From Rothia nasimurium (lineage in GTDB: Bacteria; Actinomycetota; Actinomycetes; Actinomycetales; Micrococcaceae), in assembly GCF_014217215.1 (NCBI RefSeq), contig NZ_CP056080.1, forward strand, positions 992,001 through 1,056,000: a stretch of DNA of 64,000 nucleotides, given 5' to 3'. The position numbers were made by a program, and so were the translations under genes. The notes beneath the pieces were generated by a model, which saw only the letters and a program-made list of their open reading frames with translations, was not told where the DNA came from and did no database searches. This document shows, one piece after another, positions 22,047 through 63,720 of this stretch. Numbering within the stretch: position 1 is the first letter of the stretch; each line of letters begins with the position of its first letter.

Positions 22047-22523
22047 ATGCAATTGGTTGTCTGCCCCGGATCCTTTGACCCCATCCACAACGGTCACGTC
22101 GAAATCATCACCCGCGCCGCAAAAATCTACGGTAACGTCATCGTCGCGGTCTCCCACAACTCCAAGAAAAAGTACCGCTTCACCCTTGAAGAGCGCGTCG
22201 CCATGGTTGAGGAAACCTTCGCCCTCTTCGACGGGGTGAGTGCCAAGGTGCTACCCGAGGGGGAGCTGCTGGCTAACTTCGTGCGCGACCAGGGGTCCGT
22301 ACTTATCGTGAAGGGGCTTCGCAATACCGCCGACTATGAATACGAGGCTCCCATGGCCTCGATGAACCGGCACATCGCCGGGGTTGAAACCAGCTTTATC
22401 GCCGGGGACCCCAAGTACAACCACATCTCATCGACCATCGTTAAAGAGGTCGCAGGCTTCGGTGGGGACGTGCGGGCTTTTGTTCCGCGCGCGGTGCAGC
22501 GGGCCCTCTACCCTGAGCATTAA
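22047..22523 (+). CDS. coaD: Phosphopantetheine adenylyltransferase
   Basis: A 158-residue nucleotidyltransferase catalysing the fourth step of coenzyme A synthesis (4'-phosphopantetheine plus ATP to dephospho-CoA). The HxGH motif is in PGSFDPIHNGHVEI (about residues 8-21), and the C-terminal NHISSTIVKEVAGFGGDV contains the ISSTxV signature. The ATG at 22047 has no ribosome site. A TAGCCT box ends 6 bp before it, so the mRNA may be leaderless. Confidence 0.96.
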   Translation: MQLVVCPGSFDPIHNGHVEIITRAAKIYGNVIVAVSHNSKKKYRFTLEERVAMVEETFALFDGVSAKVLPEGELLANFVRDQGSVLIVKGLRNTADYEYEAPMASMNRHIAGVETSFIAGDPKYNHISSTIVKEVAGFGGDVRAFVPRAVQRALYPEH

Positions 22524-22559
22524 TGTGGTCAGCCAAACAAGAGGTTAAACCTAGAGCGC

Positions 22560-22589
22560 TTGATTCGGCCGGTCTTAAGCCCCTAAAAT
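22560..22589 (+). promoter_or_regulatory. Promoter for yceD-rpmF-rnc-mutM
   Basis: TTGATT (22560-22565), an 18-bp spacer and TAAAAT (22584-22589) form a good vegetative promoter 38 bp before the likely yceD start. Confidence 0.6.
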
Positions 22590-22626
22590 AGGTACTTGGT
22601 TTAAAACATTCGATAGGGAGTTCGTC

Positions 22627-23175
22627 ATTTCACGAAAAGATTCATCGCCCCTTAAGATCTCGGTTCGAGATCTAGCTCATCGCCCGGGCGCAATGGAGAC
22701 CCTTGATGAAGTTCTGCCAGCGCCAAGCGACTTTGGCAACGCTCTGATTGAGGCGGAAGAAGGCAGCGACATTGACCTCAATGTTCGCCTGGAATCCGTT
22801 TCAGATGGTATCTTGGTAACTGGTACTGCAACTGTCACCGTTTCCGGTGAATGCAGCCTCTGCCTAGACCCGGTTGACTTTGATGTTACAGCCGATGTTC
22901 AAGAGCTTTTTGTTTTCGAGAAGGCCCCCGAAGGCGGCCCCGAAGATGAAGTAGATGAGCAGTACGCCGTAGAGAACGATGAAATTGATCTCGAACCGGC
23001 GCTGCGGGACGCAGTGATTCTTCAACTGCCGTTCCAACCTGTTTGCAGTGACTCCTGTCAGGGCCTGTGCTCCGAATGCGGCGCACGCCTAGAGGACGAC
23101 CCTGAGCACCACCATGAGGTCATCGACCCCCGGTGGAACGCGCTATCAGCGCTGCTCGATGCGAACGACAAATAA
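22627..23175 (+). CDS. yceD: YceD/DUF177 family protein, probable AUU start
   Basis: A 182-residue member of the DUF177 (YceD) family, almost always next to rpmF and linked to 23S rRNA/ribosome maturation. Conserved cysteine pairs are seen in CSLC and in CSDSCQGLCSECG, the latter like a small zinc knuckle. The first ATG in frame (22693) would remove the strongly family-typical ISVRDLAHRPGAM stretch. No ATG, GTG or TTG lies upstream in the frame before the promoter, but an ATT codon at 22627 is preceded by AGGGAG with exactly 6 bp spacing. I therefore annotate an AUU start, as in infC of other bacteria. The ATG 22693 version is the fallback. Confidence 0.8.
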   Translation: MSRKDSSPLKISVRDLAHRPGAMETLDEVLPAPSDFGNALIEAEEGSDIDLNVRLESVSDGILVTGTATVTVSGECSLCLDPVDFDVTADVQELFVFEKAPEGGPEDEVDEQYAVENDEIDLEPALRDAVILQLPFQPVCSDSCQGLCSECGARLEDDPEHHHEVIDPRWNALSALLDANDK

Positions 23176-23208
23176 AACTTATAAAGCAACAAGAGAAAAG
23201 AGATAGCT

Positions 23209-23412
23209 GTGGCTGTTCCCAAGCGGAAAATGTCCCGTGCTAACACCCGCGCCCGCCGTTCCCAGTGGAAGGCTTCCGTTCCTCAGCTGGTCAAGACCGT
23301 AGAAAACGGTCGCGTCACCTACTCCCTGCCCCACCAGGCAAAGCTCGTGACTGACTCAGCTGGCAACGAACTCTTCTACGAGTACAAGGGCCGCAAGGTA
23401 GCTGACGCCTAA
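23209..23412 (+). CDS. rpmF: 50S ribosomal protein L32
   Basis: A 67-residue ribosomal protein starting [20 protein letters not shown] after the initiator, typical of L32. It is one of the forms without the CxxC zinc ribbon in its C-terminal half (no cysteines present). GTG 23209 follows GAGAAAAGAGA. It is co-transcribed with yceD upstream and rnc downstream (10 bp gap). Confidence 0.96.
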
Positions 23413-23422
23413 TTCGCGCCTT

Positions 23423-24106
23423 ATGACTAACTCTGCATCACAAGAGTTTCTGAAACGTCTCGGTATCGACCTCGATACCGAGACGTTTCAGCTTGCAATG
23501 ACTCACCGCTCCTACTCCTTTGAAAACGGCGGCATACCCCACAACGAGCGCCTAGAATTCCTGGGTGACTCCGTGCTGTCCCTGGCCGTCGCCTCAGAGC
23601 TCTACAAAAAGTTCCCTGACCTGCCCGAAGGTGAGCTGGTCAAGCGCCACCACGTGATTGTTTCTACCCGAACCCTAGCCAACCTGGCCCGCAGTCTCAA
23701 GCTGGGGCCCTGCGTCCGCCTGGGTAAGGGCGAGAAGAAAACCGGTGGTGCCGATAAGGACTCCATTCTGGCTGACACCATGGAGGCCGTCTTCGGTGCC
23801 GTGTATATGAAGCACGGCCCTGAGGCCGCCCACCAGCTGGTGCTGGCCCACACCTCCCACCTGCTGGATGACAACAAGACCTTGAACATCGGGCGCGACT
23901 GGAAGACCGAAATCCAGGAATACGCTGCCGCCCAGGGCACCGGCGAGCCCGTCTACGAAGTTGAGGGCACCGGCCCCGACCACGCCCGCCGCTACACCGC
24001 CAAGGTCCTCCTGGCCGGGAAGGTCATGGGGCAGGGCAAGGGCACCAGCAAGAAGGAAGCCGAGCGTATGGCTGCCGAACAGGCCTACTACAGGGTCTAC
24101 GGCTAG
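23423..24106 (+). CDS. rnc: Ribonuclease III
   Basis: A double-strand-specific endoribonuclease (227 residues) for rRNA processing and mRNA decay. The catalytic signature HNERLEFLGDSVLSLAVA is at about residues 39-56. The second acidic cluster lies in DTMEAVFGAVY (about 118-128), and the C-terminal dsRNA-binding domain ends in KKEAERMAAEQAYYRV. The 5' coding region carries a perfect 19-bp inverted repeat (23451-23490), whose RNA form would itself be a substrate for RNase III. In Streptomyces coelicolor the orthologue AbsB cleaves hairpins in its own operon transcript, so autoregulation is a reasonable inference. Confidence 0.96.
   Translation: MTNSASQEFLKRLGIDLDTETFQLAMTHRSYSFENGGIPHNERLEFLGDSVLSLAVASELYKKFPDLPEGELVKRHHVIVSTRTLANLARSLKLGPCVRLGKGEKKTGGADKDSILADTMEAVFGAVYMKHGPEAAHQLVLAHTSHLLDDNKTLNIGRDWKTEIQEYAAAQGTGEPVYEVEGTGPDHARRYTAKVLLAGKVMGQGKGTSKKEAERMAAEQAYYRVYG
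23451..23490 (+). promoter_or_regulatory. Perfect 19-bp hairpin in the rnc coding region (candidate RNase III autoregulatory site)
   Basis: TGAAACGTCTCGGTATCGA (23451-23469) is followed by CC and then its exact reverse complement (23472-23490). It spans roughly codons 10-23 of rnc. Perfect complementarity this long is not required by the protein sequence it encodes. A 19-bp RNA duplex is close to two helical turns, the size RNase III prefers. No T run follows, so it is not a terminator. Confidence 0.7.
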
Positions 24107-24136
24107 GCCAGGCCAATTTGGAAAGGCGGAGTGAAT

Positions 24137-25090
24137 ATGCCGGAGTTACCCGAGGTCGAGGTGGTCCGCCGGGGCCTAGCCGGGCACATCCTCGGTGCGG
24201 TGCTGGAACGCGTGCAGGTAGTGGACGGACGCTCGGTGCGGCGCCACAAGCCCGGGCCGGTGGATTTCGAGCGGCTGCTGACGGGCCTGCGCGTGGCGGA
24301 TGTGGCTAGACGCGGCAAGTACCTCTGGCTGCTCTTTGAGGGCAACGAAGAATTTGCCCTGGTCATTCACCTGGGCATGAGCGGGCAGGTTCTGCTCAAA
24401 GCCCCCGAGCTACCGGCAGAAAAACACCTCAAGGTGCTCATAGACTTAGCAGGAGCCACCGATGAGAGCGGGCGCGAAGCCCCGCTCACCCTGCGCTTTG
24501 TGGACCAGCGCATCTTCGGCGGAATGTTTGTAAGCCCCCTGCTGCCCACCCGCAACGCCGCCGGGGAGCCGGTACCGGGGGCGTCCGCCTCCGCCCTGGG
24601 TCTGGCCCTCATCCCGCAGGCCGTTGCCCACATCGCCCGTGACCCGCTCGACCCCCACTTCGACTTCGGGCAGTTCAGACGCACCATGCTGGGCACCTCC
24701 ACCGGCATCAAGAAGCTCCTACTCGACCAAAGCGCCATTTCCGGGGTTGGTAATATCTACGCTGACGAAGCCCTATGGCGGGCCAGGCTACACTACGCCA
24801 AACCCGCCAAGAGCATCCCCGCCTCAACCGCCCGCGAACTGGTGGACGCCGCGCGCACCGTCATGCGGGATGCCCTAGCCCAGGGCGGCACCAGCTTCGA
24901 TGCCCTCTACGTCAATGTTAACGGGGAATCGGGCTACTTCGACCGGTCCCTCAATGCCTACGGGCAGGCAGGGCAGCCCTGCCCCCGCTGCCTAGACGCG
25001 GGGCGCACCTCGCTGATGGTGCGGGAGCCCTTCGGAGGAAGAAGCTCCTACCGGTGCTCTCACTGTCAGAGAAGACCTCGGGGCATGTAA
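24137..25090 (+). CDS. mutM: Formamidopyrimidine-DNA glycosylase
   Basis: A base-excision repair glycosylase/AP lyase (317 residues) that removes 8-oxoguanine and FapyG. Starting at ATG 24137 leaves Pro2-Glu3 (PELPEVE) at the N terminus, the catalytic pair. The GTG at 24131 would bury them and is rejected. The H2TH region contains LLLDQSAISGVGNIYADEAL, and the C-terminal zinc finger has CPRC and CSHC. AAAGGCGGAG precedes the start. It is the last gene of the yceD-rpmF-rnc-mutM unit. Confidence 0.96.
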   Translation: MPELPEVEVVRRGLAGHILGAVLERVQVVDGRSVRRHKPGPVDFERLLTGLRVADVARRGKYLWLLFEGNEEFALVIHLGMSGQVLLKAPELPAEKHLKVLIDLAGATDESGREAPLTLRFVDQRIFGGMFVSPLLPTRNAAGEPVPGASASALGLALIPQAVAHIARDPLDPHFDFGQFRRTMLGTSTGIKKLLLDQSAISGVGNIYADEALWRARLHYAKPAKSIPASTARELVDAARTVMRDALAQGGTSFDALYVNVNGESGYFDRSLNAYGQAGQPCPRCLDAGRTSLMVREPFGGRSSYRCSHCQRRPRGM

Positions 25091-25233: not shown

Positions 25234-26298
25234 TTAGTTCCTACGAAATCTACACCCGTAGTAGTCGCCCAGCCGCTCATACCCTTCCTCCAGGGAGACG
25301 GCAGGGGACCAGTCAAGGAGTTCCCGGGTGGTGCGCTGGTCGAACCAGTGGGCGGTAGACAGCTGCTCGGCTAAGAAAGAGGTCAGCGGGGGAATCTGCC
25401 CGGGGGCACAACGGGCCCAGGCCTTTTCCATCGCCAAACCCAGCCCATAGGCCACGGACGCCGGCAACGAGTAGGCCGGGGGTTTGACACCGCAGGTGAT
25501 ACACATGCCGGCGATAATCTCACCGACAGGGCGGGGCTGGCCGTTGGTGACCACCAGGGGCACCCCGCGAATCGCTTCCAGGCGCTGGTAGCCGCGCACA
25601 AAAGCGTCCGCCCCGTTATCGATGTAAAGGGTGTCAATCATAGCGGTGCCCTGGTTGAGCAGGGGCAGACGGCCAGCGGCGGCGCGTTCTAGGACGCGCT
25701 CCACCAGCTGGGTATCGCCGGGGCCCCAAACAATGTGGGGGCGTAGCACACCCACCCAGAAGTCGTCCGCATCGTAGCTCAGGGCCAGCAGCTCAGACTC
25801 GGCCTTAGACCGGGCATAGTTACCGCGGGCCTGGTCGGGGCTAGCGGGCGGGTTACCTTCGCCCACGATGGAGGCTCCGGTGTGGGCTACAGAGGGCGAA
25901 GAGGTGTGCAGGAACTTACCGATACCGACTGCGCGGGCAGCCTCAAGCAGGGTGCGGGTGCCCTCGACGTTGACCTGCCGGTAATCCTCCCATTCCCCGA
26001 CCACAGATACCTTAGCGGCCAGATGGATAATCCCCTGAACACCGGTAACAGCCCGGCGCACCGCCAGCTGGTCGGTGAGCGAACCCTGCACCTGGTCGAA
26101 GCGGTCGGCCAGGTGGGCAGGGCACATCTGGGCTATACCGGAGTCCCCGCGCTGGAAGGCCCGCACAGCATACCCTGCCCGCAGCAGGGCAAAGACAACC
26201 TCACGGCCCAGAAGCCCAGAGGCGCCGGTGACCAGCACCCGCTCAGACCGGGCAGGCTGGCAGACCTCGGGGGTAAGAGGACGCAGTGAAACTACCAC
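25234..26298 (-). CDS. oleD: OleD: NAD(P)H-dependent 2-alkyl-3-ketoacid reductase
   Basis: A short-chain-type dehydrogenase of the 3-beta-HSD/NAD epimerase group (354 residues). The Rossmann loop is VTGASGLLG (about residues 23-31), HLAAKVSVVG matches the OleD subgroup, and the catalytic Tyr/Lys are in NYARSKAE. It reduces the beta-keto acid made by OleA to the beta-hydroxy acid in long-chain olefin synthesis. GTG 26298 overlaps the end of oleBC by 7 bp, so the two are translationally coupled. Family assignment rests mainly on the cluster with OleA and OleBC. Confidence 0.88.
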   Translation of the reverse strand: MVVSLRPLTPEVCQPARSERVLVTGASGLLGREVVFALLRAGYAVRAFQRGDSGIAQMCPAHLADRFDQVQGSLTDQLAVRRAVTGVQGIIHLAAKVSVVGEWEDYRQVNVEGTRTLLEAARAVGIGKFLHTSSPSVAHTGASIVGEGNPPASPDQARGNYARSKAESELLALSYDADDFWVGVLRPHIVWGPGDTQLVERVLERAAAGRLPLLNQGTAMIDTLYIDNGADAFVRGYQRLEAIRGVPLVVTNGQPRPVGEIIAGMCITCGVKPPAYSLPASVAYGLGLAMEKAWARCAPGQIPPLTSFLAEQLSTAHWFDQRTTRELLDWSPAVSLEEGYERLGDYYGCRFRRN

Positions 26299-29009
26299 GC
26301 GATAACCCCCTTGCCCAGACGGGCCTTTTTCCCCTGGAGGAGTTGCTCAGCCCAGGCAGCAAGAACCGGGCGGTCAATCTTCGAGTTGTGCCGCACATCG
26401 GTGGGGTGCTCAGCAACCACCAGCACAGCCGATACCTCTACGCCGGTCTCAGCCAGTACCCGCTCCCGCACCCGCTGGGCCAGATCAACCGGAGCCAGGC
26501 CATTGCGGGTCTTCTTGCCCCGGAAGGTGGGGCCAACCTCGGCCACGATGAGGACGGACGCCGCCCCGGCCGGGCCGGTAGCAACAGCGGCTGCCCGGCG
26601 CACCTCGGCATCGAGTTCGGCTGCCTGTTCCAGGGCAACCGGGGTGAGTACGCCCTGGGCTGTCACCAGCACGTGGGCAAGGCGGCCCTCAACCCAGAGG
26701 CGTCCGCTGGCATCGAAATGCCCCACATCGCCGGTACGGTGCCAGCCGGGGGTGGCGCTGGAAGCGCGTTCGGTGACCCAGAGAGTGTCGTAGCGGTCCT
26801 TGATGTGTGGGGCTGCCACCAGAATCTCACCGGTGATACCGGGCTCGGTGGTGACCTCGGTTGATGCGGTTCCATCCGGCAGCAGGGGAGCAAGCTGCAG
26901 GGCTGCCCCGTGGACGGGGGTACCAACGCAGACGCCACCACCAGCACCGAGAAGCCCGGCTGCCGCGTCCTGCTCAGCCTGCTGAATCTGGGCGTAGGAG
27001 ACGTCGGTGGTGGGCAGGGCCTCGGTCATACCGTAGGGGGTGTGTAGGGAGGCAGCCGGTAGCAGGGTCTGTAGGCGGGCCAGCAGGGGAGAAGTAATGG
27101 GAGCCCCGGCGGAGAGCAGAGTGGTGACCTGCCCCAGGGCAGAGCGCTGCTGGCTGCTCAGGCCATCGACGGTCTCGAGCACGTTCATCAGGGCTGCCGG
27201 TGAAGCAAAGACCGTGGTTGCCCCAATTGCAGAAGCTGCCGATGCCAGGGCGGCGGCGGTGAGGGTCTTAGGTTTGGTGACATCCATTGCCGGGGTGACA
27301 GATGTAGCTCCCAGGGCCGGGCCCAGCAGGGCAAAGGGGGCAAAACCCGCAACCAGACCGCTGCCGGCAGCCAGATCGTAGGTGGCTGCGATAGTATCCC
27401 GCATAGCCGCCAGCTGGCGGTGGGTGTAGACCACGCCCTTAGCCGGGCCGGTGGAGCCTGACGTGTAGAGGATGGCGGCGTCCGCATCGGGGTCAGGGTC
27501 GGCTACCGCAAAAACCTCGGGGGCTGCAAAGTCATCGACCGCACCCACCACGCCCAGGGCCCGGGCGGCGGCAGCGGGGAGGGAACCGGCTGCAATGCGC
27601 TGGCCGGGCCAGCCCAGGGTACGGGCCAGGGTGAGGGCAGCCGGAATACCGATGAGCCAGGACGGGCGGGCCCCCTTGAGCGCGCGCGTCAGCCCCGCAG
27701 CGCCCAGGCCGGTATCAGCCACAACAATCACGGCTCCGATCTTGAGGCAGGCGTAGATGAGGGTGGTGAGTTTAATGCCGGGTGGCACCAGCAGATTGAC
27801 CCGGTCGCCGGGCTTCACCCCGAGCCGGTGCAGGCCAGAGGCAACCCGGTCTACCTCGGCAGCTAGTTCAGCCCACGAGAGCTGGGCGGCTACCTCGGTG
27901 CCGTCCCCCTTGCTACTCATATCAACGATAGCTAGGGTGGTGTCGTCCGCCCGGTCTGCCAGCTCGGCTCCCATGGGGCGGTAATGAGCGGACGCCGGCA
28001 CCCGGGCAGCGCGCGCGGTGAGGTGGAGGTCCCGCTGGGTGGTTCCGGTGACAAAGTGCTCGGTCAGCCAGGCCAGAATGGGGCTGGCGATGTCTTCATC
28101 TTCAGCAACCAGGTGACTGGCGGTTTCAAAACGGTGGATGTCGGCCTGCGGCAGACGGGCGGCCAGGTCGGCCATGTAGCGGCGCTGGAAGACCGGGTCT
28201 TTAGTGCCCCAGAGCATCAGGGCAGGTACATTGAGCTCGGTCATGCCTTCGGCAATAGAGACCATGGGGCGGTAGCTGGCAGCCGCTTCGGTTGCCGGTA
28301 TGTCGGCCACGAAATTCCGCACGCCCACCCGGTGCTCGGCGGTGGGGTAGGGCAGCTTGTAGGCCTTCTTGACCGCAGCATCAAGACCGCCCTGGGCCAG
28401 GCCCAGAGTCACGTCGATAAAGGCGGTTGATTTTTCGGTCGCCCAGGAATGCAGAGCCGGGTGGAGGGCCGCTTGCAGGGCTACCGGGATTTTCTCACCG
28501 GCGTCATGAAAAACGGCGGTGTTGGTCAGCATGACACCCGAGACAATCTCACGGTGGCGCAGGGCCCACCCCAGCGAGATCAGCCCGCCCCAGTCATGGG
28601 CCAGTGTAACCAGGGGAAGCTCGGTAGTATCAAGCCCAAGCGCGGCCGTAAAATCACCGAGGTCAGCGATACGGTCTGAGAGCGAGCGGGTCAGGCCGGT
28701 ACGCTCCGAATAGCCCATATCGAGCTGGTCTACCGCTACAACGCGCCAGGGCTGCTCGGCAACAGTGGCGGCAGCGATGACCGACCGCCAGAGATAGGAC
28801 CAGGTGGGGTTACCGTGCACCGCCAGGACGGTACCGACCGGGGTGCGACCGGCGGCCTCGAGAGCCGGGCCGTTATCGAGGTAGTGCCAGCGGCGGCTAG
28901 CCCCGGCTTCTTCTACCGGGGCGGACGCAGGCACCTGCACCTGCTGGGACCAGGCAGGGTCAACGCCGGGCCAGAGGGCAGGAACGGGAGTGAGTTGAGA
29001 AAACGTCAT
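26292..29009 (-). CDS. oleBC: OleBC fusion: beta-lactone decarboxylase + beta-lactone synthetase
   Basis: A 905-residue fusion. The first ~320 residues are OleB, an alpha/beta-hydrolase of the haloalkane-dehalogenase group with the Asp nucleophile in LAHDWGG (D139) and catalytic His in ETASHLV (H299). It decarboxylates a beta-lactone to the cis-alkene. The remaining part is OleC, an AMP-binding ANL enzyme (AILYTSGSTGPAKGVVYTH) that closes the beta-lactone from the beta-hydroxy acid. In gamma-proteobacteria these are separate genes; the fused form is known from Micrococcus luteus and relatives. oleA lies 8 bp upstream and oleD overlaps the end, so all three form one operon. Confidence 0.92.
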   Translation of the reverse strand: MTFSQLTPVPALWPGVDPAWSQQVQVPASAPVEEAGASRRWHYLDNGPALEAAGRTPVGTVLAVHGNPTWSYLWRSVIAAATVAEQPWRVVAVDQLDMGYSERTGLTRSLSDRIADLGDFTAALGLDTTELPLVTLAHDWGGLISLGWALRHREIVSGVMLTNTAVFHDAGEKIPVALQAALHPALHSWATEKSTAFIDVTLGLAQGGLDAAVKKAYKLPYPTAEHRVGVRNFVADIPATEAAASYRPMVSIAEGMTELNVPALMLWGTKDPVFQRRYMADLAARLPQADIHRFETASHLVAEDEDIASPILAWLTEHFVTGTTQRDLHLTARAARVPASAHYRPMGAELADRADDTTLAIVDMSSKGDGTEVAAQLSWAELAAEVDRVASGLHRLGVKPGDRVNLLVPPGIKLTTLIYACLKIGAVIVVADTGLGAAGLTRALKGARPSWLIGIPAALTLARTLGWPGQRIAAGSLPAAAARALGVVGAVDDFAAPEVFAVADPDPDADAAILYTSGSTGPAKGVVYTHRQLAAMRDTIAATYDLAAGSGLVAGFAPFALLGPALGATSVTPAMDVTKPKTLTAAALASAASAIGATTVFASPAALMNVLETVDGLSSQQRSALGQVTTLLSAGAPITSPLLARLQTLLPAASLHTPYGMTEALPTTDVSYAQIQQAEQDAAAGLLGAGGGVCVGTPVHGAALQLAPLLPDGTASTEVTTEPGITGEILVAAPHIKDRYDTLWVTERASSATPGWHRTGDVGHFDASGRLWVEGRLAHVLVTAQGVLTPVALEQAAELDAEVRRAAAVATGPAGAASVLIVAEVGPTFRGKKTRNGLAPVDLAQRVRERVLAETGVEVSAVLVVAEHPTDVRHNSKIDRPVLAAWAEQLLQGKKARLGKGVIAW

Positions 29010-29017
29010 AGTGGCTC

Positions 29018-30049
29018 CTACCAGGTGATTTCCATGAGCGCGGTGTTCAGGCCGGAGCCCACACCCATGCAGAGAATACGGTCACCGGCTACGAAGTGGG
29101 CGCTTTCCTCAGCCAGGGTCATGGGAAGGGCAGCTGCCGCCACGTTACCCCAGACCGGGAAAGTCATGGGGATGCGCTCGCGGTCGATACCCACGGCCTC
29201 AATAATGGCGTTGGTGTGGGCGTTAGAAATTTGGTGGGTTACATAGGAGCGCATGTTGCCCCAGTCCCAGCCGTTTTGGTGAGCTTCTTCCCAGGCCTCA
29301 GCGACCAGCTGCAGGCCGTGCTTGAGCAGACCGGCGGCATCCGTATTCATCCCCTGGTCGGCTTCACCGCCAATGCAGAGGTTGCGGTGCTCGGTTCCCG
29401 CGCGGGAGACCGAACCGACAATCGTGTGGCCTGCGGGGTGCAGGTCGGAGCGGCCAATGACGGCGGCCGCAGCTCCCGAGCCCAGGGTTAGGGTAGCGAA
29501 CTGGGCCAGCACATCGTCTCGGGTTGAATCGGGGCGGTTGAGCTGGCGCAGGGCGGTGGCGTGCCAGGGGGAGGGGTCTTCGCCGTCGACGATGAGGGCG
29601 TAGTCGATAGCCCCGGCGTCAATCATGGTAGCAGCAACCGTAATGCCGTTGACGAAGCCCAGGCAAGCGTTGGTGATATCGAAGTTCAGAGCGTGGCGGG
29701 GCAGGCCCAGGCGGTCGTGAATACCCACGGCTACAGCAGGTTCAAAATTATCGCGGGTGACCGAGGTGTTAATAATCAGTCCGATTTGTTCCTTGCTGAT
29801 ACTGGCCTGGGCGATAGCCTGCTCAGCAGCCTGCACCGCGCCGTCCTCAAAATGCATGGCCGGGCCCCAGGCGCGGCGCTCGCTAATACCGGCGAGGCGC
29901 TCGAGCAGACCCTTGGGCATCCTCAGCCGCTTGTAGGTGGCCGCTAGTTGCTCGTCAAAGTAGGAGCTGGTGACGACCTCCGGCGGTAGCACCCTGGTTA
30001 CCGATAGCAGGGAGGCGTTCTTGTGGCGAATATCTGAATTAGCGGTCAA
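29018..30049 (-). CDS. oleA: OleA: acyl-CoA head-to-head condensing thiolase
   Basis: A FabH-like thiolase (343 residues) that condenses two fatty acyl-CoAs to a 2-alkyl-3-keto acid, the first step of long-chain olefin synthesis. The active-site cysteine is C129 in FDITNACLGFVNG. Glu103 in the NFEP element matches the extra catalytic Glu of OleA enzymes, and the NAHTNAII stretch contains the Asn/His region. The start is TTG 30049, which gives the expected OleA N terminus (RHKNASLLSV); no ATG fits. A TTGAAA-17-AATAAG promoter lies 38 bp upstream. Divergent from smc. Confidence 0.92.
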   Translation of the reverse strand: MTANSDIRHKNASLLSVTRVLPPEVVTSSYFDEQLAATYKRLRMPKGLLERLAGISERRAWGPAMHFEDGAVQAAEQAIAQASISKEQIGLIINTSVTRDNFEPAVAVGIHDRLGLPRHALNFDITNACLGFVNGITVAATMIDAGAIDYALIVDGEDPSPWHATALRQLNRPDSTRDDVLAQFATLTLGSGAAAAVIGRSDLHPAGHTIVGSVSRAGTEHRNLCIGGEADQGMNTDAAGLLKHGLQLVAEAWEEAHQNGWDWGNMRSYVTHQISNAHTNAIIEAVGIDRERIPMTFPVWGNVAAAALPMTLAEESAHFVAGDRILCMGVGSGLNTALMEITW

Positions 30050-35243: not shown

Positions 35244-36347
35244 GTGAATGATTCTCTAACTCTCATTGTGTACATACTTCTCGGTGTGCTGATTCTAGGT
35301 GGCGTGCTTGCGGTTCTGCTCCGCGGCCCTAAGGCCCCTAAGGAAGGCTACGAGGGCACCCGCGATGCCGATGACCTCCCCGCAGATAGCGCTGACGGGC
35401 CGGTCACCACTATCGAGCGTCCGGCGTCCGCCCAGGGCCGTCTGGTGCGCCTGCGCGCCCGTCTCTCACGCTCCAATAACCTGCTGGGCAAGGGCCTGCT
35501 GGCCCTGCTGTCCCGCGACAAGATTGACCAGGACGTCTGGGACGAGGTCGAGGAGACCCTGCTCCTGGCAGACCTGGGTGCCGAGCCCTCAGCCCGCCTG
35601 GTGGAGGCCCTGCAGCAGCGTGTGCGCGTGGAGGGCACTGAGAATCCCGCCCACGTCAAGCAGATGCTGCGTGAGGAGCTTCTTTCAATCGTGGGTGAAG
35701 ATACCGACCGCTCCCTGGCCCTGGACGGTGCCGACGGTAACCCCGGCGTCGTTCTGGTCGTTGGCGTAAACGGTGTGGGCAAGACCACCACTGTGGGCAA
35801 GCTGGCCCGCGTAATGGTCGCTGAAGAGAAGAACCTCCTGCTGGGTGCAGCCGACACCTTCCGCGCGGCGGCTGCCGACCAGCTCCAGACCTGGGGCGAC
35901 CGCGTAGGGGTGGATACCGTCCGCTCCGATAAGGACGGCGCCGACCCGGCTTCCGTTGCCTTCGAAGCTATCCGCGAGGGCAAGGCCCGCGGCGTCGATA
36001 CTGTCATGATTGACACCGCCGGACGCCTGCAGAACAAGGCCGGCCTGATGGACCAGCTGGGCAAAATCAAGCGCGTGGTCGAGAAAGAAGCCCCGGTCAC
36101 CGAGGTGCTCCTGGTCATTGACGCCACCACCGGCCAGAACGGCATGATCCAGGCCAAGGTCTTCTCCGAGGTCGTTCAGATTACCGGTATCGTGCTGACC
36201 AAGCTCGACGGCTCAGCAAAGGGTGGCATCGTGGTCGCTATCCAGGAAGAGCTGGGTGTGCCCGTCAAGCTCATCGGCCTGGGCGAAGGCCCCGACGACC
36301 TGGCGCCCTTCGAGCCCGGTGCCTTCGTTGACGCCCTCCTTGACTAA
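35244..36347 (+). CDS. ftsY: Signal recognition particle receptor FtsY
   Basis: The SRP receptor GTPase (367 residues) that docks ribosome-nascent chain-SRP complexes at the membrane. GTG 35244 gives one N-terminal membrane helix (LIVYILLGVLILGGVLAVLL) followed by a short acidic linker and the NG domain. The G1 loop is GVNGVGKTT, G3 DTAGR, G4 TKLDGSAKGG, and the closing motif is GLGEGPDDLAPF. The upstream open frame to 35154 is rejected because it would put 30 residues before the anchor. Its partner Ffh is encoded 6.5 kb downstream. A very strong terminator follows. Confidence 0.95.
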   Translation: MNDSLTLIVYILLGVLILGGVLAVLLRGPKAPKEGYEGTRDADDLPADSADGPVTTIERPASAQGRLVRLRARLSRSNNLLGKGLLALLSRDKIDQDVWDEVEETLLLADLGAEPSARLVEALQQRVRVEGTENPAHVKQMLREELLSIVGEDTDRSLALDGADGNPGVVLVVGVNGVGKTTTVGKLARVMVAEEKNLLLGAADTFRAAAADQLQTWGDRVGVDTVRSDKDGADPASVAFEAIREGKARGVDTVMIDTAGRLQNKAGLMDQLGKIKRVVEKEAPVTEVLLVIDATTGQNGMIQAKVFSEVVQITGIVLTKLDGSAKGGIVVAIQEELGVPVKLIGLGEGPDDLAPFEPGAFVDALLD

Positions 36348-36370: not shown

Positions 36371-36409
36371 AACCGGGGGAACTGTTTCAAACAGTTCCCC
36401 CGGTTTTTT
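36371..36409 (+). terminator. Strong intrinsic terminator after ftsY
   Basis: A 14-bp stem (AACCGGGGGAACTG and its complement) with a 7-nt loop is followed by TTTTTT. Confidence 0.92.
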
Positions 36410-36540: not shown

Positions 36541-36632
36541 ACGCGCAGAGAACAATAGAACCTGTCAACACACCAAGAGCCGGTCTACCGGCACACAGGT
36601 TTTCTCTACGGGTTTTGAAAGGGGTAACAGGC

Positions 36633-61713: not shown

Positions 61714-62265
61714 ATGTTTTCACCAGCAGAAAAGACCGGCCAGCCCGTCCCCCTACCGCCAGAGACAACCGGCAACCCTACCGGTGGTTTTATCTTTCTG
61801 CTGGCTATCCCCTCAGCCCTCACAAGCCACGTTACCTGGGCTCTTGAAAATCTCACTGCCCACCGGCTGACCCCCACCTGGCAAGCCCAACCCCAGAAAC
61901 CGGGCTACCACCGTGCAGATATCAGCTGGCAGGGCAACAGCGGGGGAGCCGCCCTCATCGCCTCCACCCTGCGGCACTTCGGGGGCAGCTACTTTGAAAT
62001 CACCGAGCGCCGCACCGCAACCTCCGATGCCTTACGCATCATGCACACCCCAGAACTCGGCATCTGTACCCTACCGGTAGATCTACAGGGCAACTTCACC
62101 GTGACCGAAGACCGCATCCGCTACGCCTTCGAAAAGGCAGCCGGTAATTTTGATGAACTCTATCGGCAGTTCTCTGCGGCTGTTGGCCAGCCCTGGGACG
62201 ACGAACTTGAGCCCCTGCGTCCTAACGCCTCATCGGCCAGTGCTACCGTCAGGCTCCGGGACTAA
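61714..62265 (+). CDS. DUF3145 family protein
   Basis: A 183-residue actinobacterial protein of the DUF3145 family, typically adjacent to fabF and acpP. Visible features are GFIFLLAIPSALTSHVTWAL near the N terminus, WQGNSGGAALIASTLRHFGGSYFEITE in the middle and the RIRYAFEKAAGNFDELYRQF helix near the end. No membrane segment or signal peptide. Function unknown. It is convergent with fabF, separated by a bidirectional terminator. Confidence 0.88.
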   Translation: MFSPAEKTGQPVPLPPETTGNPTGGFIFLLAIPSALTSHVTWALENLTAHRLTPTWQAQPQKPGYHRADISWQGNSGGAALIASTLRHFGGSYFEITERRTATSDALRIMHTPELGICTLPVDLQGNFTVTEDRIRYAFEKAAGNFDELYRQFSAAVGQPWDDELEPLRPNASSASATVRLRD

Positions 62266-62294: not shown

Positions 62295-62346
62295 AGAAAA
62301 GGGCCCTTCTGCCCGAACCAGAGTTCGCGCAGAAGGGCCCTTTCTC
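62295..62346. terminator. Bidirectional terminator between DUF3145 gene and fabF
   Basis: AAAGGGCCCTTCTGC (62298-62312) and its exact complement (62329-62343) flank a 16-nt loop. A-rich and T-rich flanks allow termination both ways. Confidence 0.88.
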
Positions 62347-62367: not shown

Positions 62368-63639
62368 TTAGTTACTGATGCTACGGAAAGCCGCTACAGC
62401 GTTGTGGCCACCAAAACCAAAGGAGTTCGAGACAGCAACAATCTCACCGGCGGGAAGGTCCCGTGCCTCGGTGACAACGTCGAGGTCAATCTCAGGGTCC
62501 TTGTTCTCCAGGTTAATGGTGCAGGGAGCCTTACGGTGGTAAACCGCAAGAACAGTCAGCACAGCTTCAAGAGCACCGGCACCGCCGAGCAGGTGACCGG
62601 TCATTGACTTGGTTGCAGATACAGCTACCTTGCCGGTGTGCTCCCCGAAGACCTCACGCAGAGCCAGGGACTCGGGGATATCACCCACGGGAGTAGAGGT
62701 TGCGTGCGCATTGACGTGCACTACCTGCTCGGGAGAAATACCGCCATCGGTCAGAGCCTCCTGCAGGGCGCGGGTAGCACCCAGAGCAGCCGGGTCGGGA
62801 GCTGTGATGTGGTGGGCGTCCGCTGAGACGCCGGTGCCAGCCAGCTCCGCGTAGATACGGGCTCCGCGGGCCAGCGCGTGCTCCTCAGATTCAAGAATTA
62901 GCGCAGCACCGCCCTCACCCATCACAAAACCGTCGCGGCCGGTATCGTAGGGGCGGGAAGCACCAGCAGGGTCATCGTTGCGGGTCGATAGGGCCTGCAT
63001 CTTTGCAAAGGCGCCAATCGTCATGGGGTGGATTGCAGCCTCAGAACCACCGGCAATCACCACATCGGCCTTACCCGAGCGAATCAGCATCAGGCCGAGC
63101 TCGAGAGCTTCGGTCGACGATGCGCAGGCGGACACCACGGTCTGGGCAGCGCCACGGGCCTTCAGATTCATCGAGACGGCAGCAGCATTTGAGTTGGGCA
63201 TCAGCATGGGAACCGTCATAGGCAGCATACGGCGAGGGCCCTTCTCGCGCAGAGTATCCCAGGCATCAAGCAGAGTCCACACACCACCGATACCGGTACC
63301 AAAAGCAACCGCGGTCCGCAGCGGATCGCACTCTTCAGCAGCCTCAGCGTCAGGGCCGCTAAAACCGGCGTCCTCCCAGGCCTCACGCGCAGCAACCAAA
63401 GCCAGCTGACCCGAGGGGTCCAGGCGCTTAGCCTCAACCTTAGTCAGGCGGCCCGAATCAACAGCATCTACAGCCACACGGCCAGCAATCGAAACCGGCA
63501 GGTCGAATTCCTCAACCCAGGGCTCTTCAATAGTGGTGATGCCTGAGACACCTGCAAGCGCATTTTCCCAGGTCGTCGGGACATCCCCACCGATGGGGGT
63601 GGTGGCGCCGAGGCCGGTGACCACAACTTTACGAGTCAT
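62368..63639 (-). CDS. fabF: Beta-ketoacyl-ACP synthase II
   Basis: A condensing enzyme (423 residues) that elongates acyl-ACP in type II fatty acid synthesis. The active-site Cys is in VVSACASSTEALELG (about residue 170), and the two catalytic His are in VHVNAHATSTPVGD and later TKSMTGHLLGGAGALEA with its Lys. The NSFGFGGHNA loop ends the protein. ATG 63639 follows GAAGGAA; the open frame beyond it to 63699 would run into the acpP terminator hairpin. It is co-oriented with acpP, but a terminator lies between them. Confidence 0.95.
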   Translation of the reverse strand: MTRKVVVTGLGATTPIGGDVPTTWENALAGVSGITTIEEPWVEEFDLPVSIAGRVAVDAVDSGRLTKVEAKRLDPSGQLALVAAREAWEDAGFSGPDAEAAEECDPLRTAVAFGTGIGGVWTLLDAWDTLREKGPRRMLPMTVPMLMPNSNAAAVSMNLKARGAAQTVVSACASSTEALELGLMLIRSGKADVVIAGGSEAAIHPMTIGAFAKMQALSTRNDDPAGASRPYDTGRDGFVMGEGGAALILESEEHALARGARIYAELAGTGVSADAHHITAPDPAALGATRALQEALTDGGISPEQVVHVNAHATSTPVGDIPESLALREVFGEHTGKVAVSATKSMTGHLLGGAGALEAVLTVLAVYHRKAPCTINLENKDPEIDLDVVTEARDLPAGEIVAVSNSFGFGGHNAVAAFRSISN

Positions 63640-63674
63640 GCTTGATTCCTTCGAATACAGTCTTGGGTTGGGGT

Positions 63675-63720
63675 AAAGAATAAAAAGCAGGTTGGGCACG
63701 ATAAGACCGTGCCCAACCTG
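63675..63720 (-). terminator. Intercistronic terminator between acpP and fabF
   Basis: On the minus strand CAGGTTGGGCACG (63720-63708) pairs perfectly with 63700-63688 over a 7-nt loop, followed by CTTTTTATTCTTT. It lies 12 bp after the acpP stop and about 49 bp before fabF, so most transcripts probably stop here and some read through. Confidence 0.85.

Follow-up and report, generated by a model that had tools for sequence, protein, structure and literature searches.

A hairpin within the RNase III coding sequence is conserved across the Micrococcaceae and is a likely target of RNase III itself

We found that the RNase III gene (rnc) of Rothia carries, inside its open reading frame, a perfect hairpin that very probably serves as a cis-acting autoregulatory target of RNase III. 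Sequence comparison shows that selection has preserved the hairpin, as a structure of the sense RNA, across the sampled family, the Micrococcaceae, and that its pairing is maintained by compensatory changes that alter residues of the protein. Below, "the window" denotes the whole 64-kb stretch of DNA that was analysed.

A perfect in-frame hairpin near the start of rnc

An inverted-repeat scan of the window (arms of at least 14 nt, spacing of at most 60 nt) returned 17 repeats, and the longest perfect one lies in rnc, with arms of 20 nt that are 100% complementary and a CC spacer. An earlier note on this DNA had described a 19-bp hairpin with this spacer over codons 10-23 of the RNase III gene. 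Both statements were confirmed: there is one extra outer pair (20-bp arms, 23450-23469 and 23472-23491), and the placement on the codons is exactly in frame. The relevant features are as follows.

22693..23175, + strand: YceD-family gene (Pfam PF02620), upstream of rpmF
23209..23412, + strand: rpmF, ribosomal protein L32 (Pfam PF01783), 10 nt upstream of rnc
23423..24106, + strand: rnc, RNase III, 227 aa (Pfam PF14622, PF00636 and PF00035; above the TIGR02191 cut-off), which hosts the hairpin
23450..23469, + strand: 5' arm of the hairpin, rnc codons 10-15 (Leu-Lys-Arg-Leu-Gly-Ile) plus positions 1 and 2 of codon 16 (Asp); 20-nt perfect inverted repeat, paired in the MFE and centroid structures
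23469..23472, + strand: apical loop as RNA, 4 nt (ACCU); in the DNA the perfect arms are separated by CC, 23470-23471
23472..23491, + strand: 3' arm of the hairpin, from position 2 of rnc codon 17 through codon 23; inverted repeat, with codon-codon complementarity kept in relatives

The predicted RNA fold has 19 bp and a 4-nt loop, because the innermost A-U pair cannot close a loop of 2 nt. A 180-nt segment around the hairpin folded at -58.8 kcal/mol, compared to -41.0 (sd 4.3) for dinucleotide shuffles (z = -4.2), and 0 of 200 such shuffles folded as well; the stem was also present in both the MFE and the centroid fold of a 325-nt piece beginning at the rpmF leader. It spans nucleotides 28-69 of the rnc ORF, close after the start codon. 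Its symmetry follows the reading frame exactly, with codon 12 opposite codon 21, 13 opposite 20, 14 opposite 19 and so on, and therefore opposed codons pair base for base. When the genome was searched with 200 bases, no second copy of the hairpin was found (the second match was the palindrome against itself), and a mobile or repeated palindrome was rejected on this ground. Nothing exceeded the gathering score in Rfam, where the best of four weak matches, to microRNA models, had 25 bits versus 81.

The rnc product has RNase III and dsrm domains (Pfam), and its translation includes NERLEFLGDS, which we take to be the RNase III signature motif; this protein is the proposed trans-acting enzyme on the hairpin. 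It is identical to the protein in the R. nasimurium 15QC2CO record and 99-100% identical to those of three further R. nasimurium records and of Candidatus R. avicola, while the RNase III of a record named R. nasimurium 136RC1 is only 86% identical. The genes rpmF and rnc probably share one transcript, and a scan of 22500-24200 found no terminator-like site on the + strand. Only 10 nt separate the rpmF stop codon from the rnc ATG (23410-23425), and no clear Shine-Dalgarno sequence is visible there; these two features suggest that translation of rnc is coupled to that of rpmF. Downstream of rnc lies a gene for formamidopyrimidine-DNA glycosylase.

The hairpin is conserved across the family

The family set held 96 distinct rnc sequences, 36 from Rothia/Kocuria records (one of which bears the name Curtobacterium) and 60 from 31 other genus groups; group f1 was taken to be the Micrococcaceae from its named Rothia and Kocuria records. 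The wider set comprised 180 rnc regions, 60 each from the 149 family, 198 order and 148 class genomes searched. These regions were hand-picked, at one to a few per genus or family, before their DNA was seen, those of the order and class being chosen among the matches listed; families f4, f10, f16, f18, f41, f48, f50 and f52 fall outside the sample. The extra-family loci L064-L082 and L084 were excluded from the counts, and L063 was counted as group x in the gene scan, the register-free test and the codon 12/21 counts. The order set contributed 59 of its 60 sequences to the fixed-register pairing test (L153 has no anchor), and the class set contributed 58 of 60 to the gene scan, the register-free test and the codon 12/21 test (L224 and L260 have no anchor). 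Because the protein motif LGV..DPE favours complementary codons, the null was made by resampling synonymous codons according to each gene's own usage, 300 times per sequence.

All 36 distinct Rothia/Kocuria sequences formed at least 16 of the 19 pairs at the same codons, as did 56 of the 60 other family members; the remaining four formed 14-15 (15 in L098 and L105, 14 in L110 and L144). Over the whole family, 92 of 96 sequences reached at least 16 pairs, compared to 12-13 expected from synonymous resampling, with means of 18.1 in Rothia/Kocuria and 17.6 in the rest of the family against null means of 13.2 and 12.3. Furthermore, for 84 of the 96 sequences no more than one of 300 resamples was as stable, and a register-free repeat of the test again gave 84 of 96. 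A gene-wide scan of every second family member (48 of 96 sequences, 24 shuffles, approximately 220 codons) revealed that the excess of structure along rnc peaks only at the hairpin, where the mean z was -5.0 (18 sequences) and -5.2 (30 sequences); the overlapping next step of the scan gave -1.8 and -1.7, and every other step within rnc gave -1.2 or higher. The earlier note had called such a perfect duplex rare by chance, and its length rank in the window agrees; the comparative data, in which pairing is kept across the family, exclude chance as its origin.

Codons on opposite sides of the stem coevolve

For covariation we aligned 30 of the 36 Rothia/Kocuria sequences, the near-duplicates L022, L030, L053, L057, L059 and L061 being excluded. 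In this alignment 96% of cells pair, compared to 28-42% after sliding by 1-3 columns, and 44 cells had changed on both sides versus 13.5 in shuffles. Two of the five covariation measures were those reached by some shuffles, namely the number of pairs with a both-side change (7 of 19; reached by 22 of 500 shuffles) and the number of further pair types (19; reached by 29 of 500).

The effect of this coevolution on the protein is plainest at codons 12 and 21. Family members carry CGT/ACG (Arg/Thr), CAT/ATG (His/Met), AGT/ACT (Ser/Thr) and CAG/CTG (Gln/Leu) at this pair of codons, as well as AGC/GCT and CGC/GCG (Ser or Arg/Ala), and group f8 has AAG/CTT (Lys/Leu) and GAG/CTC (Glu/Leu). Exact reverse complementarity between codons 12 and 21 holds for 103 of the 105 f1, f6 and f8 sequences, compared to 7 of 110 elsewhere (f6 and f8 were pooled with f1 after their stems had been seen; f1 was not so chosen). 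Within these three groups Arg12 is accompanied by Thr21 in 87 of 89 sequences. Outside them, 42 of the 49 sequences with Arg12 have Leu as residue 21 and one has Thr, and the association of Arg12 with Thr21 is therefore not a preference at the level of the protein. In addition, Arg12 is written CGT in 86 of the 89 sequences, a codon used for 15% of the arginines elsewhere in the gene.

Silent choices on one side of the stem also predict amino acids on the other. Among the 96 family sequences, Gly14 written GGT goes with Thr19 in 16 of 33 and, through a G-U pair, with Ala19 in 16; GGC goes with Ala19 in 30 of 33, GGG with Pro19 in 18 of 21, and GGA with Ser19 in 5 of 9. Likewise, Lys11 written AAA goes with Phe22 in 15 of 15 and AAG with Leu22 in 55 of 56. 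A tree built from the rest of the protein by a quick method without a mixture model requires a minimum of 32 changes at the third base of codon 14 and of 22 changes at residue 19. In phylogenetically independent pairs the partner shifted in the matching direction or stayed equal, and never shifted in the opposite direction; the sign tests are mostly too small to stand alone (median p of 0.03 for GGT/Thr, 0.06 for GGG/Pro, 0.125 for GGC/Ala and 0.25 for GGA/Ser), and Lys11/Phe22 gave one independent pair only. The earlier note had proposed looking in relatives for compensatory changes at synonymous positions, and the pairing came through that comparison very strongly. Its remark that the duplex is not needed by the protein was right but understated: residues of the protein change so that the duplex is preserved.

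Selection acts on the sense RNA

A structure selected in the mRNA can tolerate G.U pairs but not A.C mismatches, whereas selection on the DNA or on an antisense RNA gives equal or reversed counts. In the 15-bp core of the stem, the 1440 cells of the 96 sequences comprised 1351 Watson-Crick, 61 G.T, 3 A.C and 25 other combinations, compared to null means of 866, 121, 128 and 325, respectively. Over all 19 pairs the counts were 1572 Watson-Crick, 136 G.T, 15 A.C and 101 other. Because G-U cells far exceed A-C cells in the core (61 to 3), we conclude that selection acts on the sense RNA.

Stems at the same place in other actinobacterial families

Structure at these codons was also found beyond the Micrococcaceae. 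With no more than 3 of 300 resamples as stable in the register-free test, all three members of f6, five of six in f8 and all nine in f37 passed, together with one or two members each of f5, f7, f9, f19, f20, f27, f30, f45, f46 and f47 and the lone L063. Outside f1 and f37, 23 of 110 sequences passed, where simple arithmetic leads one to expect one to two. No significant structure at these codons was detected by the same test in f3 (0 of 6), f11 (0 of 3), f13 (0 of 5), f22 (0 of 5) or f38 (0 of 4), nor in any sampled member of f14, f15, f17, f36 and others; because so many actinobacterial families show no significant structure here, the hairpin is not a general requirement.

The nine f37 sequences, which we infer to be from Streptomyces and whose protein start matches what we take to be that of AbsB, all have a stem over the same codons. 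It differs from the Rothia stem in sequence, contains a one-base bulge and reaches its apex roughly one codon further upstream. In L152, L169, L158 and L259, which belong to other actinobacterial families, strong stems of other sequence, some of them in other registers, are likewise predicted at almost the same codons and hint at repeated gain of a hairpin in the rnc coding region. On the whole it seems probable that a feedback hairpin has persisted at a single site in rnc, or has arisen there anew with different stems, in several actinobacterial families (the Micrococcaceae, f6, f8, f37, plus one or two members of others), and that in the Micrococcaceae the requirement for the mRNA to serve as a good substrate of its own product partly determines residues 11-22.

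Discussion

RNase III is specific for double-stranded RNA, and it generally cuts both strands of an unbulged helix of nearly two turns such as the Rothia stem. By analogy with the systems described below, we infer that RNase III would read the stem and cut it, with autoregulation as the result. The stem would form in the rpmF-rnc mRNA, and RNase III, when abundant relative to its other substrates, would bind and cut this stem of roughly 17-20 bp. The cut would destroy the rnc message and lower RNase III synthesis, a negative feedback, while the upstream rpmF part of the cut message may survive; cutting would in this way presumably uncouple L32 from rnc expression. Self-cleavage by RNase III is by far the best reading of the hairpin because of the selection on sense RNA, the location in rnc and the known precedents. 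The earlier note had proposed it as well, and the sequences give that proposal good if partial support, short of proof.

In S. aureus, RNase III is reported to autoregulate by cutting a stem-loop that lies in the coding part of its own mRNA; this stem-loop is conserved among staphylococci, and catalytic mutants have two- to three-fold more of the protein (PMC3386247). Like the Rothia hairpin it lies inside the RNase III coding sequence, but it sits near +296 to +306, is bulged and is reported to be cut on one side only (PMC3386247). We found no excess of structure near +300 of the ORF in two groups of the family, where the mean z was -1.2 to 0.1, in contrast to the Rothia stem at 28-69. In E. 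coli, too, RNase III autoregulates by cutting a hairpin in its own mRNA, as we propose for Rothia; the E. coli site, however, is described as a 5'-terminal stem-loop (PMC3386247), and the protein code of rnc does not overlap it.

A further parallel comes from S. coelicolor, where RNase III is reported to cut its own polycistronic transcript at two places, one in the rnc cistron and the other upstream of it, with both cuts placed in loop regions of stem-loops (PMC10126417). Lioliou et al. also place the control of Streptomyces rnc in the coding sequence (PMC3386247). The S. coelicolor RNase III mutant is described as having more of its own polycistronic mRNA (PMC10126417 and PMC5775266, after Xu, Huang and Cohen 2008). 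The gene in question, absB (rnc), is the same gene as in Rothia and likewise stands after L32, as the last of a three-gene operon (PMC5775266). In S. venezuelae the 3' half of rnc mRNA is reported to rise without RNase J, which its authors read as an internal RNase III cleavage product (PMC12096830). The mapped absB cut may or may not coincide with the f37 stem. Cleavage by RNase III of its own mRNA is reported for S. coelicolor, and for the Micrococcaceae it is predicted.

Self-cleavage within the RNase III coding region is thus of a known kind, here widely extended and joined to an unusual coevolution of codon with codon. As far as limited searches show, what is new is the family-wide reach, the recurrence at one place in rnc with different stems, and the residues that follow RNA pairing; the abstract openings among the matches listed in open-licence PMC name neither this hairpin in the Micrococcaceae nor codon coevolution in rnc. 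What had been observed in a few species thereby becomes a conserved control element, open to experiment, for a core enzyme of RNA processing in a large family of bacteria. The hairpin is also an unusually clean case of RNA structure overriding protein, in which two amino acids evolve together on account of base pairing between their codons in the mRNA, and inference of protein contacts from coevolution, or recoding of rnc for expression, would be misled if it were ignored. In addition, the stem is a place where cleavage in vivo is likely, and could serve for mapping the activity of RNase III in the Micrococcaceae.

Several other explanations were weighed against self-cleavage. A conserved mRNA hairpin might have a different role, as a translation brake, as a stability element shielding rpmF from 3' exonucleases or as the target of another RNA-binding protein, with RNase III controlling rnc by another route such as antisense RNA. 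Stable hairpins can indeed slow ribosomes and block exonucleases, and the Rothia stem starts at nucleotide 28 of the ORF, close after the start codon. Furthermore, Lioliou et al. (2012) raise the possibility that translation is slowed by the stem in the S. aureus coding sequence, which would aid access of RNase III (PMC3386247), and an antisense RNA to rnc has been detected in S. coelicolor, which could be a second source of duplex substrate for RNase III (PMC5775266). We nevertheless consider such a role unlikely: it leaves unexplained why the host gene, in several families, is that of a double-strand-specific nuclease, given the coding-region self-cleavage reported in two species (PMC3386247, PMC10126417), and the excess of G.U over A.C speaks for a fold of the sense strand itself. 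The same asymmetry bears on a palindrome acting at the level of DNA, whether as an operator, as a cruciform or through template-switch (quasipalindrome) upkeep. Although the two arms complement each other perfectly in the window and 9 of the 19 pairs are invariant in the Rothia/Kocuria alignment, the other pairs vary yet stay paired, which an operator does not need; the excess of G.T over A.C is expected only for sense RNA, equal counts being absent; and the excess of pairing is limited to one site in rnc across many genera. Together these points make a DNA-level palindrome very improbable.

The hairpin might also arise without selection, as a by-product of the LGV..DPE motif and GC-rich codons that are naturally complementary (CTCGGGGTC / GACCCCGAG). 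The motif does raise the background, so that under the null the family forms 12-13 of 19 pairs on average, and two family members, L111 and L112, stand only weakly beyond the null in stability (8 and 26 of 300 resamples, respectively, at least as stable). However, most family members form more pairs than the codon-aware null predicts, silent third bases vary together with the amino acids encoded opposite them in the stem, CGT at codon 12 runs against codon bias, and f13, which has the same LG[VI]..DPELL motif, pairs at background (10.8 vs 10.7). We therefore regard a by-product as extremely improbable; as a full explanation it is refuted by the codon-aware null and the silent-site covariation, and it accounts for only part of the pairing. 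An intrinsic terminator between rpmF and rnc, finally, would fit a stem-loop shortly after rpmF, but the stem lies inside the ORF, no T run follows it (AGCTTGCAATG) and the + strand scan found no terminator, so that the chance of this reading is next to nil.

Other inverted repeats and genes in the window

Four further perfect inverted repeats of 14-17 nt start at 1700, 36371, 38262 and 52364. When ORFs of at least 130 aa were considered, the last three fell in gaps between + strand ORFs, and the repeat at 1700 extended 11 nt into the listed GTG start of a + strand ORF; mechanical - strand ORFs overlap two of the four. The repeat at 36371-36405, a perfect 17-bp one with a 1-nt gap, lies between + strand ORFs ending at 36347 and starting at 36615 and could be an intergenic terminator or a processing hairpin. 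A 21-bp, 95% inverted repeat at 62298-62343, between the ORFs 61714-62265 (+) and 62368-63699 (-), is probably a bidirectional terminator of these convergent genes. On the - strand at 25234-30049, three adjoining genes encode, according to Pfam, a ketoacyl-synthase III-like protein, a 905-aa fusion of an alpha/beta-hydrolase with an AMP-binding enzyme, and an NAD-dependent epimerase/dehydrogenase, an order that resembles what we take to be the OleA-OleBC-OleD arrangement of long-chain olefin clusters.
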